Shown here piece by piece: positions 49,234 to 59,685 of a DNA stretch of 64,000 bases. The DNA lies in NCBI RefSeq assembly GCF_020164485.1, contig NZ_JAIQZA010000017.1:1-64000 (forward strand), read 5' to 3'. Within the stretch, counting starts at the first letter, position 1; each line of letters starts with the position of its first letter. The translations under genes and the position numbers were made by a program. The stretch comes from Salegentibacter tibetensis. Lineage in GTDB: Bacteria; Bacteroidota; Bacteroidia; Flavobacteriales; Flavobacteriaceae. The notes beneath the pieces were generated by a model, which saw only the letters and a list, made by a program, of their open reading frames with translations, made no database searches and was not told the origin of the DNA.

Positions 49234-52173
49234 TTATTTAAGGTCGTTTTTTAAAGTTTTATCCAGAAAATCCAGAGTATAGGTTAATGTGTTTTCAAAC
49301 CAGGGTTCCATTAGCCAAAAAGAATGTGGGGAATTGGGAATTGTGTGTACTTCGGAATAAATATTATGTTTTTCCATTATTCCTATCATATCGTCCCGAC
49401 CGGCGTGAAAACGTGGTTGTGCGCTGTTTATAAAAAGTGTTGGTGGCGTATTCTCATCTACATATTCCAAAGGAGAAGCATTTTGCCAGTTTTGCGGATT
49501 TTCAGCCTGAAGTCCGCCTAACCATAAACCGGCAATTTCACTTTCTTCGGCTTCGGGATGGATAAAAGATACAATCCCGTCAATATTTATTATAGCCTGA
49601 ACCTGATCCTGGTTTTTAAAATCATCTTTAAGAAACTTTTTATTTCCTGAAGTAACCCCGAGTAATGTTGCGAGTTGTGCTCCGGCTGAAGTTCCCAAGA
49701 CAGCAATTTTATCCGGATCTATTCCAAATTCTGAAGCATTTTTTCGCATCCAGGAAAGTGTGGTTTTTAAATCTTGAACTGCAGCGGGAAATTTAGCTTC
49801 CCTACTTAATCGGTAATTGGCTACCACTGCGACATACCCGTTTTTGGCAAGATGTTGTCCCATAGTTTGCTGGTTCTCCTTGCTTCCAGAAACCCAGCCT
49901 CCCCCGTGAATTAAAAGCACGGCAGGATGATTTTTTCCTTTTTTTGGTGAGTACACATCGGCTTTTAATTCACTGCCGTCTATTTCTCGGTAAATCAGGT
50001 TTTCCCGGGCTATAATTTTATCAGAATCTAAGGGTTGAATCGGTTTTATAAACGGATAATTCTTCTTAAGCTTTTCGTAGGTGGTTTCAATGGTGTAAGG
50101 TGATATTGAAATAGGTTCTTCATTAAAGAGCGTAAGGTTTTTCATTTCATCAAAAACCAGCTGAGCAACTGCCTTAGCGCCTGCCGGCTGAAAATGAGTG
50201 TTATCATCCTGCCCATCAGGATAAGCTTCGTATTTTCCGGCAGGCAGATTCATAAAATAATTTTCAGTTACATAATCCTTTCCTTTTTTGGTAAAAAACT
50301 CCTGTGAACTTTGATTCAAATCGATTAGATGCACGTTAAGCTCTTTCGCTACTTCTTTAACAGCAGGATCATATTCACCGTGAATATTGCCTAGTTTCCT
50401 CTCTTCCCAGGGATAATTTCTGGCTACCGGAGTAAGTAAAATTGGAATCGCATTTTTTTCCCTCGTTTGTTTCACGAAAAGTCTTAAAAATTCTTTGTAA
50501 CCTTCTACATCTACATATCTTTCATGCTTCTCTTTTGAAGCATCATTGTGCCCCAACTGAATTAATACCAAATCGTTTTCTTCCAAATCTTCATAAATCG
50601 CCCGCCAACGTCCTTCCTGAAAAAAAGTTCTTGTACTGCGACCACCCCTGGCGCGATTATCAACTTCAACACTATCAGTTTTTAACAGCCCGTTTACATT
50701 TTGAAGGCTATCCTTTGAAAAAAACTGTTGAAAAACCTGCCCCCATCCCATAAGTGGATAACGGGTTGTCATATAATCCTTTCCGGATTCATAATTATCG
50801 GAATAATCGGCCATTGTAGAATCGCCGGCAAGATAGATAGTGGTGATAGCAGGGTTTCCTACTAATTCATTCAAATATACTTCCAGGTTAGTATATGTTT
50901 CATGAAGGTCATTAGCCGCATCATCAGCTTTTTGGGGATTTAAATTATTGGCAATTTCCCAGGTATCGGGCATACCATCGTTGTCAGAATCCTTTTCGGG
51001 TTCACCAGACTTTAACTCCGGCCAACCACCTACGTCTTCCTGTGAATCAATTATGCCATTTTTAAAGCTTGCAGTGCTTTTTCGAAGATCGTTAATGACC
51101 CGTTTATCAACCGCATCCTGGCGCATACTGGCTCCTGCATTTTTCAACACCAGTTCATAGGCCTCGCGGGCATTTTGTGTCTTTACATTTTCTGATACAT
51201 TCCTCGCTTTTTCCATTCGAGCGGCATTGGGATCTTTAATGTCCACTCCCCTCCAGTTATTTTGAGTCACTTCTTCAGAACCTTCCATGATATTTCCATC
51301 AATGTAAAAATCGCCATAAGGTTCATAAGGCTCCAAAATTCTTTCTCTTTTTGAAGAAGAAGTTGCGGGTCCAGGTTTATAATAATTATTGATCATATTA
51401 TAGGTGCCACTTTCACCTCCATAAACGCTGTTGCTACCCCAGTTATAAATAACGTTATTCCTGAAATCAACAAATTCATCCTCCGAATTAGCAGTAGTCT
51501 CTGAACCGCTAAATCTTGGATTCCGACTGTTGTTATTGGCTATCAAATTATGATGGAAAGAAGCTTTTTCACCCCCCCAAATGCTTCCATATCCATGAGC
51601 GCCTTTACCGTGAACCGAACGGTTTAAAGCTTCAGAAATTATACACCATTGCATAGTAAAATTTTTGTTCCCATAAAACGATGCATTCTCATCGGTCGCC
51701 CAACTTATTGAGCAATGGTCAATGATCACGTTCTTGGTATCTCTACCTCCCAGGGCATCGCCAACTGCTTCATTACTATCTCCCATTCTAAACCGCATAT
51801 ACCTAATAATCACATTATCGGCTTTTACTGAAACTGGATAACCCTTTAAGGTGATTCCTTCTCCGGGAGCGGTTTGCCCGGCTATGGTAAGATTGCCCTT
51901 GCCTCTATTTATATCTAATGGCGATTTAAGTTCTATTGTACCGGAGACTTCAAAAACAATGGTTCGTGAACTGCTTTTTACAATACCTTTTCTAAGACTT
52001 CCCTCTCCATCGTCATTAAGATTGGTTACTTTATAAATTTCACCCCCTCTTCCTCCTGTAGCATAACGGCCAAAACCTTCGGCGGAAGGAAAGGCCAATT
52101 CTTGCGCCTCTGCCAGGAACGGAGCGGAGAGAAGACTAATAACCATTAAACATTTTTTAAAAAAGGAAAGCAT
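49234..52173 (-). CDS. Trifunctional fusion: PL1 pectate lyase, CE12 acetylesterase and alpha/beta-hydrolase esterase
   Basis: A 979-residue secreted protein (signal peptide 1-23, ending AEAQ). Residues about 25-430 form a PL1-type right-handed beta-helix (AEGFGRYATGGRGGEIYKVT, IIDHCSISWATDEN, NNNSRNPRFSG) ending with a calcium-type DSDNDGMPD linker. Residues about 446-700 are a CE12 SGNH domain with GDST (450-453), RARGGRSTRTF, LGHND and DDNTHF. Residues about 715-979 are an alpha/beta hydrolase of the BD-FAE type, with the oxyanion HGGGW (about 757), nucleophile GTSAG (about 829) and a C-terminal SPHSF His. All three active sites look complete. It would cleave the chain and remove acetyl and perhaps other ester groups at the same place. 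Confidence 0.9.
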   Translation of the reverse strand: MLSFFKKCLMVISLLSAPFLAEAQELAFPSAEGFGRYATGGRGGEIYKVTNLNDDGEGSLRKGIVKSSSRTIVFEVSGTIELKSPLDINRGKGNLTIAGQTAPGEGITLKGYPVSVKADNVIIRYMRFRMGDSNEAVGDALGGRDTKNVIIDHCSISWATDENASFYGNKNFTMQWCIISEALNRSVHGKGAHGYGSIWGGEKASFHHNLIANNNSRNPRFSGSETTANSEDEFVDFRNNVIYNWGSNSVYGGESGTYNMINNYYKPGPATSSSKRERILEPYEPYGDFYIDGNIMEGSEEVTQNNWRGVDIKDPNAARMEKARNVSENVKTQNAREAYELVLKNAGASMRQDAVDKRVINDLRKSTASFKNGIIDSQEDVGGWPELKSGEPEKDSDNDGMPDTWEIANNLNPQKADDAANDLHETYTNLEVYLNELVGNPAITTIYLAGDSTMADYSDNYESGKDYMTTRYPLMGWGQVFQQFFSKDSLQNVNGLLKTDSVEVDNRARGGRSTRTFFQEGRWRAIYEDLEENDLVLIQLGHNDASKEKHERYVDVEGYKEFLRLFVKQTREKNAIPILLTPVARNYPWEERKLGNIHGEYDPAVKEVAKELNVHLIDLNQSSQEFFTKKGKDYVTENYFMNLPAGKYEAYPDGQDDNTHFQPAGAKAVAQLVFDEMKNLTLFNEEPISISPYTIETTYEKLKKNYPFIKPIQPLDSDKIIARENLIYREIDGSELKADVYSPKKGKNHPAVLLIHGGGWVSGSKENQQTMGQHLAKNGYVAVVANYRLSREAKFPAAVQDLKTTLSWMRKNASEFGIDPDKIAVLGTSAGAQLATLLGVTSGNKKFLKDDFKNQDQVQAIINIDGIVSFIHPEAEESEIAGLWLGGLQAENPQNWQNASPLEYVDENTPPTLFINSAQPRFHAGRDDMIGIMEKHNIYSEVHTIPNSPHSFWLMEPWFENTLTYTLDFLDKTLKNDLK

Positions 52174-53845: not shown

Positions 53846-53889
53846 GGCACTATTAACCGAATTATGAAAAAAATTCAGTCAATAGTGCC
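53846..53889. terminator. Hairpin terminator after the PL9 gene
   Basis: GGCACTATT (53846-53854) pairs with AATAGTGCC (53881-53889). The pairing continues inward to 18 bases with two mismatches, around a loop of A residues. On the minus strand it is followed by TTTTA. It begins 20 bases after the PL9 stop and should end the PL9 transcript. Confidence 0.65.
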
Positions 53890-53908: not shown

Positions 53909-55759
53909 TTAATATTCAAACGCCCCTAAATCTGGTGCCGAGCCGTTAAAAGGCAAGCCTACATCCACTCCTTTGTCGATCAAATCGCTACCAGGGGTTA
54001 GATGGAAAAAGCTAACATCCGGAAGACTTCCATCTTCTTTTCTAGGCCCCGTCAACTCTTCATAATCAATGCTTTCAAAGTCTTCAAAAGTCGTCTCAAT
54101 ACCATCCATCCAGCTATTGTTTGTAACATCGAGAGTAGTTGCATTGATGCTTCCTACTTCTCCAAGTACATTACTATTCTTTATGGTTAACTTCTCCAGA
54201 GGATTTGTATTGCCAAAAGCATAATTCCTACCATTATCATAAGCAGAGCAGTTGTATAGAGTTACATTACCCCTATTACTGTTATGATCGAAACCATCAG
54301 ATGCGTTACCAACTGCTAAACAATTCAAATAAATAGCATCATGCTTTAAATCCTTGTTATCGCTTCCTCCGGTTTTAAATCCGTTGCCATCACCTCCGCT
54401 AGGAGTGCCGTCTTTTAAATAGCCATTTTCTATGGCCCAGCAATTTTCGTAAATAGTAGTAACATTATCGGCATTCCTTAAATAGCCATCCCAGCCATCA
54501 TCCAGATTTCGCCACGCCCTGCAACCAACAAATTTGTTGCCGGTGCCAACGTCTAACTTGCTTGCAAACCCGTCGGCATTCTCAATTGTAGAGTCAGCGT
54601 TAAAGTATGAGTCGCAATTTAGGATTGTGTTGTTAGATGCACCACTATCCAGCTGAAGCCCTGTATCTGCACATTCAGAAAAAGTACAGAATTCAATGAA
54701 GTTATTGTTACCTGTTATATTTAATCCGTTATCCCCCGCTTTATAAACATCAATGCCTTTAATATGCCAGTAACTGGCCTCTAGTTCGATTCCTCTGTTA
54801 GAAGAATTTTCAGACATTGAGGAAAAATCAAATTTTGGCCTGGAATCATCTTCCGGGTGTGCTAGTAATGAGATCATATTACTTGCACTACCACTAGTGT
54901 TAATTTTAATGGTTGAATCAAAAGCATACTCACCTCCACGGATATAGATATTTTCACCCGGCATAGCCGCTGCTATAGCATCTAAAATTTCCTGCGAAGT
55001 ACTTACCACTTCACCTTGTATAGAAGATGTATTCTCACCAGTCCTAAAGGAAAATGTGTTGCTTATAGCTGTATTCTTCCCATCGGTGGTTTCTACGTGC
55101 CAGTAATAAATACTATTAGGCTCAACCTCAATTTCTATAGAGGTTTCTGTAAGACCTGTCCATTCCTCAGGTGGGTCCTGATCGCCGTCTACTGTATCTG
55201 CATACAAGGTATAGGTTAAAGGATCTCCATCTGTATCGGTTGAGGCAGCTTCCCATTCTAGGGTAACTTTTCCATCTACGGGTGAAACCATTACCCCAGA
55301 GGCAGGTGATATAAGCGTTGCAGGAAAAGGTACATTATTAGATCCGGGAACGCCAGCAACATAAAACCTGTAAGGTTCTGAGGCTGTAGTTTCTTCTCCA
55401 TCATTCTTTGAAATAACCTTCCAGGTGTAAGGATTACCTCTTTCAAGTCTTACAATTATAGAGGTCGTATTAAGGTTTGGTCTCTGAGTAACTTCCTGAG
55501 TAGCCAAATTAGTGATCACGAGATCATATCTTTCGGCATCACTCGCTTCACTCCATTCAAAAGCTACTTCTGCCATATTAGCTATAACATCTCCAACCTC
55601 ACATTCTGTATTGTTCTCCGGAAGTACCAAACTGGCTACTCCAGGGACCGCATCATTAATTACCTCAGCATCATCGTCTTTAGAGCATGACACCGTTATA
55701 GCACCCATCATAAAAATCAGGAGCAGTTTGTAATAAGGTATATTTATAGGTTTTTTCAT
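53909..55759 (-). CDS. PL9 pectate lyase lipoprotein with two fibronectin III-like domains
   Basis: A 616-residue surface lipoprotein (signal peptide ends ITVSC). Two FnIII-like domains lie at about 35-140 and 145-245 ([20 protein letters not shown]). The rest is a right-handed beta-helix of family PL9. The calcium and catalytic residues known from Dickeya Pel9A fit: an Asp in NADGFASK, then 24 residues later the pair in LDDGWDGYL and the Asp three further on, and the catalytic Lys in [10 protein letters not shown]. It cleaves polygalacturonate by beta-elimination. Its ATG overlaps the stop of the upstream T9SS protein gene by 4 bases, so the two are translationally coupled. Confidence 0.88.
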
Positions 55760-58700
55760 GATTTAATAACTTTTATAGTTTTACTTACAGTGGCTGACTT
55801 TAATAGAAGTAAATAAATTCCATTTCTATAATTGGTAAGGTCAAGCTGTATAACTCTGTCTGCAGGAACTTCCATATTTTCTGATATATATTCCTTTCCG
55901 CTAAGATTAATCAGGGATACATTTACGTTAGTATCTGTTCCATTAATATATACCTTAAGGTCGCCTTTGGTAGGGTTTGGGAACACTACAATATCTTCAG
56001 ACAGTAAGACCTCTTTATAAAAAATGTCCTGACATTCAGAATCTGTAGAGATGGTAAACTTGTTTTTACCAGCTTCCAAATCTAAAACCACTCTTGATTG
56101 TGATGTGGTTGAGATTTTACCATTGTGCTCAATCTTATAAAGATTAGCTCCATCCAGTGAGAAGCTCACCGTGTTATTTGCATAATTCACAGAAGAATAG
56201 GCTTCTAAAGGCGTTGGTCCTTCTATGGTTACATTAAAACATTGCTCATATTCCTGTCCATCTATAGTTATACATATATCATATGTACCCGCAGAGAGAT
56301 TCTCAATATTCGCCGAAAAATCATTAGAAGATGATAAGGTTGCAGATCCGCTACCTGCACCAGATACTGATACATTATAAGTGTAATTAGGATCTTCTGC
56401 GCTGATGCTTATAAACCCGTCACCGTTTCCATTACAACTTACATCATGCACAGATATACTAAAATTATCTGCCGCCAGGTTGAAAATTTCACAACCAAAA
56501 ACATCGACAATGGCACCTTCGGGAGAATCTGGACAATTATCCTCAAAATTTATGATTCCGTCTCCATCATCGTCTTCACATACATCTCCAATACCATTAT
56601 TATCAGAATCTGCCTGATCTGGGTTAGGGGTATACATACAATTATCATCAGCATTCAGAATTCCGTCATTGTCGATATCGCCAAAAGGCCCAAGAGGTTC
56701 AGGTTCAAAAACTATATCGCTCGTGGTTTCACCAGTTATTTCCAATTGATTTTCCGGAATAAAATAACCATCTACCCCTTCACTCTCTATAGTATATTCA
56801 ATATTTGGCTCGAGTTTTACGGAGTATGTGGCCGCCTCTGTATCAATTATTGGTTTTGGAACATAAAGCCCATCAGCACCAGGATCAGGAGTAAATGTTA
56901 AAACTAAATCTCCGATATTCTCGTTAAGACCGGTTATCGATCCGGTAACGGAATAAATTTCGACTTTTTTAATAGTTATATCATGGTTAGTTGTGCTCTC
57001 AGTAACTTCTAATGAAGTACCATTAGAAATTATGTAACCATCAGCGCCTTCGAGGGAAATACTATACTCAAAGCCCGTTGGTAAGTCAACCTGGTACGAC
57101 CCATCAGTTGGCGTAACGTTCCAGGTTTTTCCTTCTTCAATAGTAAATACTATTGAATAGTCTTCGGGGATTCCTGGAGCATCTGCTACTTCTACATTAC
57201 CAGTTATGTTGGAATAAGTGGCAGGTTTGCGAATAATTCTAAAATAACTGGGTTTGTCGGCCGTATCATAAATATGATAGGTTCCACTAGCCTTTGCCAC
57301 AAAACTTACCTCTTGAAGATCACCACCCACATTTACAACATCATTCTGTAGTTCAGGATCTGCGACATTTTCAAAATGAAGCTCACCAACACCATCCTGT
57401 CCAAGCACCCAAAGGCTTACTTTATCATCTTCATTAAGATTCAAACTCATGAACCGGTCGGTAGCACCTCTGGAATTAATATAAACTCTTCCTTTGAACT
57501 CCTCGTAATCATTAATGTTTTCATCATATCGGGTCAAATTCGTATTGGTGGTTCGTAGACGGTCACTTCCGCCTCCGGTAAAGCTAAGATCACCAGCTGT
57601 AAAATCGGGCAAAGTATGATCTGAGGTTCCTGGCGTAATGGATTCATCATACCACGAGTTGATAATATCTTCCGTTAACATATTGTTGAACTGAGATTCG
57701 TCCAGTTGTGTTGCACCAAAATCCCAAACATCACTAAGAACATTGCTCCCACCGCTTCCAACATCCTGGTCAGCACTTTTTCGTGTAATTCTAAAATAGC
57801 TGGGTTTATCGGTATCATCATAGATATGATAAGTCCCTGTAGCTGTTGCAGTAAATTTTAACTCAGTGAGCTCACTTCCTAAAGCTACTACATCGTCTTG
57901 TAATGCCGGATCAGCCACATATTCAAAATGAATATTACCATTACCATTCTGAGTAAGAGCCCAAATAGTTACTTCGTCGCCCTCGTTTAATTCAAGACTT
58001 AAATACCTGTCTGTAGCTCCAGATGAATTAATATAAACTCTTCCTTTGAACTCCTCGTAATCATCAATGTTTTCATCATAACGGGTCAAATTCGTATTGG
58101 TGGTTCGTAAACGATCACTTCCACCTCCAACAAAACTAAGATCACCAACTGTAAAATCTGGCAAAGTATTGCCCGAACTTCCTGGTGTAATGGATTCATC
58201 ATACCACGAGTTGATAATATCTTCTGTCAACATATTGTTGAACTGTGACTCGTCCAGTTGTGTTGCACCAAAATCCCAAACATCGGTAAGACCATTGCTC
58301 CCACTGCCTCCAGCATCCTGGTCAGCACTTTTTCGTGTAATTCTAAAATAGCTGGGCTTATCAGTATCATCATAGATATGATAAGTTCCTGTAGCTGTTG
58401 CAGTAAAATTTAATTCGGTGAGCTCACTTCCTAAAGCTACTACATCGTCTTGTAATGTCGGATCAGCCACATATTCAAAATGAATATTACCATTACCATT
58501 CTGAGTAAGTGCCCAAATAGTTACTTCGTCGCCCTCGTTTAATTCAAGACTTAAATACCTGTCTGTAGCTCCAGATGAATTAATATAAACTCTTCCTTTG
58601 AACTCCTCGTAATCATCAATGTTTTCATCATAACGGGTCAAATTCGTATTGGTGGTTCGTAAACGATCACTTCCACCTCCAACAAAACTAAGATCACCAG

Positions 58701-59484
58701 CTGTAAAATCGGGCAAAGTATTGCCCGAACTTCCTGGTGTAATGGATTCATCATACCACGAGTTGATAATATCTTCTGTCAACATATTGTTGAACTGTGA
58801 CTCGTCCAGTTGTGTTGCACCAAAATCCCAAACATCGGTAAGACCATTGCTCCCACCGCCTCCAGCATCCTGGTCAGCACTTTTTCGTGTAATTCTAAAA
58901 TAGCTGGGTTTATCAGTATCATCATAGATATGATAAGTCCCTGTAGCTGATGCAGTAAAATTTAATTCGGTGAGTTCACCTCCTACGGCTACAGAATCGT
59001 CTTGTAAGGCCGGATCGGCCACATATTCAAAATGAATATTACCATTACCATTCTGAGTAAGTGCCCAAATAGTTACTTCGTCGCCCTCCTTTAATTCCAG
59101 ACTTAAATACCTGTCTGTAGCTCCAGATGAATTAATATAAACCCTTCCTTTGAATTCCTCGTAATCATCAATGTTTTCATCATAACGGGTCAAATTCGTA
59201 TTGGTGGTTCGTAAACGATCACTTCCACCTCCGGTAAAACTAAGATCACCTACTATGAAATCAGGCAAAGTATTGCCCGAACTTCCTGGTGTAACTGATT
59301 CATCATACCACGAGTTTATAATAACTTCTGTTAACTTGTTATCAAACTGTGACTCGTCCAGTTGTGTTGCACCAAAATCCCAAACATCGGTAAGACCATC
59401 TGATGGTTCTGGTTGGTTTTGTGAAAAGCCCTGAGTAATTCCCAACAAAAGGATAAGGCCTAAAAGATGTAATCGTTTCATCAT
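55756..59484 (-). CDS. T9SS-secreted multidomain protein with four 184-residue modules (putative pectin-binding)
   Basis: A 1242-residue secreted protein (signal peptide 1-21). Four consecutive modules start at about residues 31, 215, 399 and 583, each opening [15 protein letters not shown] and closing [18 protein letters not shown] (the fourth is diverged). Two regulatory-like beta domains follow (about 760-930), then thrombospondin type 3 calcium repeats ([30 protein letters not shown]). A beta-rich region comes next, and finally a type A T9SS sorting domain from about 1165 ([15 protein letters not shown] to KTIKVIKS). No catalytic motif is visible. Aromatic-rich modules and coupling to the PL9 gene suggest polysaccharide binding on the cell surface, which is inference. 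Confidence 0.78.
57219..59394 (-). repeat. Four tandem 552-bp in-frame repeats
   Basis: The segment repeats with an exact 552-base period (184 codons), seen for example in the recurring TGTTGCACCAAAATCCCAAA near 57710, 58260, 58812 and 59364. The second and third units differ at only about six of 184 residues; the first is slightly diverged and the fourth most. This points to recent tandem duplication or gene conversion within the T9SS protein gene. Confidence 0.85.
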
Positions 59485-59625
59485 TCCATAAAAGATTTAA
59501 TTAATAATGTATTCTATTCTAGTCTTAGAATTGTTAACTGCTTTTATATTAAAAGCGCGTTGCTCTTTTCCTTTTACCTGTTGAGCAGGCTTCAGAGGTT
59601 ACTCTTAAAAGCCAAAAAAATAAAT

Positions 59626-59662
59626 AAAAAGGGTGTGCATCATTACGATGCATACCCTTTTT
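59626..59662. terminator. Strong hairpin terminator after the DUF5123-type gene
   Basis: AAAAAGGGTGTGCATC (59626-59641) pairs with GATGCATACCCTTTTT (59647-59662), with one G-T position and a 5-base loop. A-run and T-run flanks make it work on both strands. It lies 23 bases after the DUF5123-type stop and separates the SusCD transcript from the T9SS/PL9 unit. Confidence 0.75.
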
Positions 59663-59685
59663 AATATTTATAGTTTCGATACATA

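Follow-up and report, generated by a model that had tools for sequence, protein, structure and literature searches.

A four-module, T9SS-tailed protein paired with a PL9 lipoprotein in Salegentibacter tibetensis: a putative pectin binder related to modular pectin methylesterases

The 64,000-nucleotide stretch of Salegentibacter tibetensis DNA analysed here (contig NZ_JAIQZA010000017.1, hereafter the window) contains an open reading frame (ORF) at 55756–59484 of the reverse strand that starts with ATG and encodes a 1242-aa protein with four tandem modules, here called the module protein. A hydrophobic leader ending in GFSQ was assigned as the N-terminal signal peptide (about aa 1–21, 59422–59484; boundary set by eye). 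Repeat comparison placed the modules at aa 33–201 (M1, 58882–59388), aa 217–385 (M2, 58330–58836), aa 401–569 (M3, 57778–58284) and, on the side of the stalk described below, aa 585–753 (M4, 57226–57732), all on the reverse strand. The core is 169 aa, the period is 184/184/184 aa and the C-terminal motif is SYFRI(T/I)RK; M1 is also a member of the module profile family. At the protein level, M2 and M3 are 98% identical, M1 is 92–93% identical to both, and M4 is 76–79% identical to the others. The description “near-identical” in the initial annotation therefore fits M1–M3 (92–98%) and fits M4 less well. The DNA identity across M1–M4 is 78–98%, and a chance repeat was rejected because this is far beyond chance. 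The proposed richness in Trp, Tyr and Phe is not distinctive, as these residues make up 11.2–11.8% of each module and the median of 40 window ORFs (module protein included) is 10.3%. Each module is net acidic, with 31 Asp/Glu versus 10–13 Lys/Arg. A catalytic role for the module was considered and rejected, nothing pointing to catalysis having been found.

The modules are followed by a stalk segment (aa 754–931, 56692–57225, reverse strand). An AlphaFold2 model of M4 plus the stalk (pLDDT, the predicted local distance difference test, 73.5) gave mostly pilin matches among the 50 Foldseek matches listed, e.g. SpaA and PitA, which suggests a stalk made of two pilin-type Ig-like domains (split by eye). 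A thrombospondin type 3 (TSP3) segment follows at aa 936–996 (56497–56679, reverse strand; PF02412, E 1.8e-11, with COMP/thrombospondin matches). The C-terminus (aa 1167–1239, 55768–55986, reverse strand) is a type A sorting domain of the type IX secretion system (T9SS), matched by PF18962 (E 8.4e-12, 45.7 bits, cut-off 27) and TIGR04183 (35.9 bits, cut-off 23). These matches and the 184-aa repeat period bear out the initial annotation of a T9SS protein with four modules. The SprB model matched the module protein below its cut-off. In the host genome, the SprA model TIGR04189 scored 2797.8 bits, and the T9SS_sortase model NF033707 gave no match there and two sub-threshold matches in control genomes.

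The TGA stop codon of the module gene overlaps the start of the next gene by 4 nt (ATGA), as had been noted. The partner gene (53909–55759, reverse strand) encodes a lipoprotein with an fn3-like part and a PL9 pectate lyase domain (PF22842, E 4.5e-21); the fn3 and SusE models matched it only below their cut-offs. Its lipobox, TVSC, was identified by eye and is followed by SKDDD, which we take to be a surface-export signal. A consensus scan found terminator-like hairpins flanking the pair of genes: one with 18 pairs lies 3' of the PL9 gene (53846–53889, reverse strand), and the other lies between the module gene and a gene for a DUF4957/DUF5123 protein (59625–59663, no strand assigned). The region contains four such hairpins in total and 4.1 were expected from shuffled sequences, i.e., there is no excess.

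Among 299 genomes sampled from the same family, 17 carried the module (18 of 397 by profile). It was also detected in 7 of 395 genomes of a phylum sample, all seven belonging to the same family, and in 3 of 15 genomes of the genus, one of them as a contig-end fragment. The samples overlap, and every count includes the source genome. A scan of genome_contigs gave seven loci, from Salegentibacter lacus, four Salinimicrobium species, Christiangramia echinicola and Mesonia oceanica, and a protein-mode search of the plasmid collection gave no match. The analysis covered 25 module proteins: that of the window, 17 from other genomes and those of the seven genome_contigs loci. Outside this count are L046–L048 (G628, G379 and G576; open frames of 1500, 1083 and 1088 aa), G683 (four modules; equal to L039 in frame length and probably of the same species), G781 (three modules; equal to L040 in frame length and probably the same), G690 (match truncated where its contig ends) and L062 and L064, which are very distant. 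Two very distant relatives, L065:9255-10400 (381 aa) and L066:8625-9830 (401 aa), have KYWDFGAKELGAGY shortly past the leader; the former lies directly 3' of a SusD-like gene and has a sub-cut-off match to a T9SS tail, and the latter has SusC/SusD-like genes within the same 20 kb. They suggest that the module may belong to a wider family of secreted binders.

A CE8-bearing segment is present in 16 of the 25 module proteins and is 57–100% identical to aa 775–1382 of the Salinimicrobium profundisediminis homologue L041, itself counted. Of 15 module proteins scanned, 9 exceeded the cut-off of PF01095 and 8 that of PF18962. Among the 16 segment-bearing proteins, the CE8 motif GRQD(S/A)FY was found in 15, DYIFG in 11 and GRPW in all; the motif residues presumed to be catalytic agree with the published Asp/Asp/Arg triad (PMC12109409, section 3.2). 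The S. tibetensis module protein has no PF01095 match at E 1, and the motifs GRQDx(F/L)Y, D(Y/F)(I/V)FG and GRPW are all absent from it. One module was detected in 15 of the 16 segment-bearing proteins and two in L041, whereas the six proteins of this architecture that lack the segment (window, L039, L040, L042, L043 and L044) have 4, 4, 3, 4, 4 and 4 modules, respectively; L036–L038 are proteins of about 300 aa with a single module each. The stretch comprising M4 and the stalk (window aa 585–931) aligns in all 16 CE8 proteins, and L022, L024, L028, L033 and L041 also match the window protein from TSP3 to the tail. On this sequence evidence, the window gene lies in a conserved locus and is homologous to genes for long, modular pectin methylesterases of the CE8 type, and its product appears to be a version of such an enzyme without the catalytic segment, a point missed by the initial annotation. 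One relative, L024:6209-13930, encodes a 2573-aa protein with a PF00544 pectate lyase domain, one module, CE8, TSP3 and a T9SS tail.

Alignment with L041, a 1690-aa protein encoded at the same locus with two modules and CE8, locates the missing segment precisely. Window aa 356–931 correspond to L041 aa 127–774 and window aa 936–1241 to L041 aa 1383–1689, and the gap is a 608-aa segment holding CE8. The junction (aa 931–938, 56671–56694, reverse strand) is the site at which homologues carry a further ~608 aa. The alignments of L024 and L033 break at the same point, and those of L022 and L028 do likewise with a short overlap of the pieces. All six CE8-less proteins share the junction peptide GP(F/Y)GD(I/L)D, which is absent from L041. 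The most parsimonious account is an ancestor with the CE8 segment, followed by its loss in the group to which the window protein belongs. Trees built for PL9, SusD and the C-terminus do not separate a single loss with later exchange from repeated losses; the shared junction peptide favours a single loss with later exchange.

A tree of 39 of the 43 modules (all but those of L035–L038) bears on how the copies arose. The final modules of the seven loci form one group (94/97), M4 clustering with those of L039–L044. Window M1–M3 also group together (98/94), as do M1 and M2 within each of L040, L039 and L043 (100/99 each). The stalk-side module thus appears to be the stable one and the others largely lineage-specific copies. 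The spacing of the modules differs as well: the gap between M3 and M4 (57733–57777) is 15 aa, and L039–L044 have a spacer of about 97 aa before the last module, which in L041 looks by eye like the first stalk domain. The short gap could be a trace of a lineage-specific deletion or recombination. The absence of the entire catalytic segment might also mean that the module protein is a decaying, functionless leftover of a pectin methylesterase. We consider this very improbable, because each of the six CE8-less multi-module proteins has an unbroken reading frame, modules have multiplied within lineages (window M1–M3; M1–M2 of L040 and of L043), all six CE8-less loci retain the PL9 overlap, and PF18962 is above its cut-off in all four of the six that were scanned.

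To place the module, a profile and alignment of 27 of the 43 modules, near copies excluded, were used. No Pfam or NCBIfam model scored above its cut-off on the module within the window protein, and no Pfam carbohydrate-binding module (CBM) model matched any of the 27 modules at E 0.1. An hmmsearch of the profile against 177,635 PDB sequences gave 8x8h as the best match (E 1.1e-4), followed by 8wc1 (E 0.012), both entitled “A carbohydrate binding domain of a putative pectate lyase”. An AlphaFold2 model of M2 from 26 sequences (mean pLDDT 67.9; predicted template modelling score 0.69; confident at about residues 65–168) retrieved the same two entries from the PDB with Foldseek (8x8h, E 2.1e-6; 8wc1, E 8.5e-5; template modelling score by query 0.50). 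Lower matches comprised CBM6, CBM36 and CBM61 as well as other beta-sandwiches, including some that are not carbohydrate-binding modules. Alignments with hhalign on typed segments gave E 1.4e-6 for 8x8h and 1.8e-5 for 8wc1; these are single comparisons of pre-chosen stretches and are not independent. A search of 296 Bacteroidota genomes with the typed 8x8h segment gave no match and, lacking a positive control, is uninformative. The module is related to these solved carbohydrate-binding domains of pectate lyases and is probably a beta-sandwich carbohydrate-binding module itself. It is not an orphan, since distant relatives are already available as structures. The proposal of a new CBM family is weakened by these relatives and is supported in part. 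No open-licence paper naming 8x8h or 8wc1 was found, and no description of the module was found in the titles or displayed abstracts of the open-licence papers listed.

On the strand of the module gene and upstream of it are genes for SusC (a fragment cut by the edge of the window), SusD and the DUF4957/DUF5123 protein; SusC and SusD were assigned by inspection of their sequences. Downstream are PL9, a PF09492 pectate lyase (presumably PL10), a PelZ-like/esterase protein, GH88/105, CE8, DUF4861 and GH28, and then KduI, a DctM (TRAP) transporter, an oxidoreductase of the mannitol dehydrogenase type, altronate dehydratase and further copies of GH28 and CE8, one of each. The cluster also includes a LacI regulator on the opposite strand, as well as GDSL and acetyl-esterase-like genes, and it is a pectin and hexuronate cluster. 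The host genome has two PF01095 genes, both stand-alone and both inside the window. The 979-aa protein encoded at 49234–52173 consists of a PelZ-like N-terminus, a GDSL esterase and a BD-FAE/acetyl-esterase-like domain, and may be a pectate lyase/double esterase fusion.

The association with PL9 recurs among the relatives. The order SusC-SusD-DUF4957-module-PL9 and the 4-nt overlap are kept in six of the seven genome_contigs loci. A full PL9 protein is encoded directly downstream of the module gene in 10 of the 25 loci and the lipoprotein half only in three, and one or the other adjoins 7 of the 16 CE8-bearing module genes. The three half-length products (L024:5474-6202, L028:13637-14356 and L034:13398-14126) are lipoproteins of 239–242 aa, homologous only to the N-terminal, fn3-like part of the PL9 partner and without the lyase, and each is encoded 3' of a CE8-bearing module protein; L028 also has a separate PL9 gene close by. 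They could point to domain fusion or loss on the partner's side too.

From these results, we consider it likely that the S. tibetensis protein is a T9SS-secreted, catalytically empty pectin-binding protein, probably at the cell surface and paired with the PL9 lipoprotein. A pectinesterase would have lost its catalytic segment of about 608 aa while keeping module, stalk, TSP3 and T9SS tail, and the binding module would have been amplified to four copies versus one or two in the CE8-bearing homologues. Four modules on a stalk would provide avidity and hold pectin on the cell surface for the PL9 lipoprotein encoded with them, and de-esterification would be left to the two separate stand-alone CE8 enzymes of the cluster. 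Both the avidity and the cooperation with PL9 are inferred. The multivalent pectin-binding partner that had been proposed gains indirect support from the co-occurrence with CE8 (16 of 25), the recurrent PL9 pairing and the profile and fold matches to pectate-lyase binding domains. Overall, the observation in the initial annotation is confirmed and its interpretation is partly supported.

The ligand of the module is probably galacturonan-type pectin. Of the 169 columns in the alignment of 27 modules, 36 are conserved at ≥90%, and these columns contain 8 of the 10 basic residues of M2 (R58, R60, R68, R82, R93, K160, R165 and R168) and 4 of its 31 acidic ones, a pattern that suits an acidic ligand. 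A hypergeometric test for the conserved basic residues gave 7e-5, a value that treats columns as independent, and arginine is often structural. The binding site cannot be mapped because the N-terminus of the module is poorly modelled.

Several observations weigh against this interpretation. The net acidic modules disfavour a polyanion unless conserved Arg or Ca2+ mediate binding. Residues 7–60 of the M2 model are poor (pLDDT mostly <50), as are about 60 N-terminal residues of the module in both models, and 8x8h is absent among the 50 matches listed for the model of M4 plus stalk. Identity is 24–27% to 8x8h over part of the module and 16–22% to 8wc1. In the PL9 tree, L041 nests among the CE8-less loci, at a fork of weak to moderate strength (85/96). 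Six loci (L025, L029, L030, L032, L036 and L045) have no ORF resembling the window cluster within 16–20 kb, as judged by similarity comparison only. C. echinicola DSM 19838, the source of L043, has a published pectin-like polysaccharide utilization locus (PUL) and carries one PL9 and one CE8 gene, but was reported not to hydrolyse pectin (PMC4891872); L043 is probably that locus. G. flava is reported to have a pectin PUL with PL9 and two pemA genes, said to resemble the G. echinicola PUL; endopolygalacturonase and hexuronate genes were up on pectin, but susC-susD of the pectin PUL were not significantly up (PMC5306329).

Further points against come from other domain models. The PPC model PF04151 matched 9 of the 27 modules weakly (best E 1.7e-4); it stays below its cut-off on the window protein (19.4 bits versus 25.9) but exceeds it for L039 taken as a whole (46.6 bits). 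The Cohesin model does the same for full-length L040 (25.3 versus 24.1 bits) with no single significant stretch, and NMT1 reaches 20.8 versus 20.5 bits on the whole L042 protein; all three are whole-protein scores with the best stretch in the module, passing narrowly or through summing over repeats. Together with the TSP3 and pilin-like stalk segments and the sub-cut-off SprB match, the PPC and Cohesin scores could mean that the module is a structural or adhesive, PPC-like beta-sandwich and the protein a surface stalk or adhesin for cells or proteins rather than sugar. We regard this as quite unlikely, since module and CE8 occur in one protein in 16 of 25 cases, the top profile and structure matches are pectate-lyase binding domains, and the single-module proteins L037 and L038, though not L036, adjoin pectin or hexuronate genes. 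There is a somewhat larger, though still small, chance that the module binds another carbohydrate, i.e., rhamnogalacturonan side chains, acetylated pectin, alginate or an algal glycan. The six loci without a comparable cluster and the GDSL and acetyl-esterase-like genes of the window would fit such a ligand, but all of the six except L036 keep the CE8 segment in the module protein itself.

Returning to the pectin-binding protein, we tentatively put forward a bolder form of the proposal, of which we remain doubtful: an enzyme turned scaffold-like binder, in which a multivalent pectin “rope” and the overlapping PL9 lipoprotein make up a bipartite surface pectinase as a conserved T9SS-protein/lipoprotein pair. 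As the direct neighbour in L024, L028 and L034 is the lipoprotein half without PL9, the partnership itself is perhaps what is kept. The gene provides a case in which it can be tested whether binding modules have outlived an enzyme and taken its place, and the S. profundisediminis homologue, with its intermediate make-up of two modules plus CE8 at the same locus, makes enzyme and binder forms of one gene directly comparable. The module is also a tractable pectin-binding candidate that has no curated Pfam or NCBIfam family model above cut-off, and it hints at a T9SS route by which Flavobacteriaceae may retain surface pectin.

Among known systems, 8x8h and 8wc1 are the top profile matches and the top fold matches of the M2 model, their chains are of similar size (174 and 178 aa), and both align with the module at its two arginines in positions 82 and 93. 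However, identity is 16–27% over 81–110 aligned columns, and both are parts of lyases, whereas the window modules are four tandem copies in a protein without a catalytic domain. The modular pectin methylesterases of Flavobacteriaceae (e.g. L041, L022 and L023) share module and stalk with the window protein but keep the ~608-aa CE8 segment and have one module (two in L041) instead of four. CBM77 binds homogalacturonan and thus resembles the module in its supposed ligand class; the typed 8x8h segment matches its model PF18283 weakly (E 0.085, 13.7 bits, cut-off 25), whereas none of the 27 modules matches it at E 0.1. Surface glycan-binding proteins of Bacteroidota PULs are typically non-catalytic, multi-domain lipoproteins encoded beside SusC/SusD. 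The window protein is likewise a multi-domain binder without a catalytic domain near SusC/SusD, but it has a T9SS tail and seems to be enzyme-derived. PmeC5 of Butyrivibrio fibrisolvens is reported to be a large, secreted pectinesterase of several domains, with CE8 and PL9 alongside likely binding domains (PMC12109409); there these functions reside in a single protein, while in S. tibetensis PL9 and a CE8-less binder are encoded by two overlapping genes.

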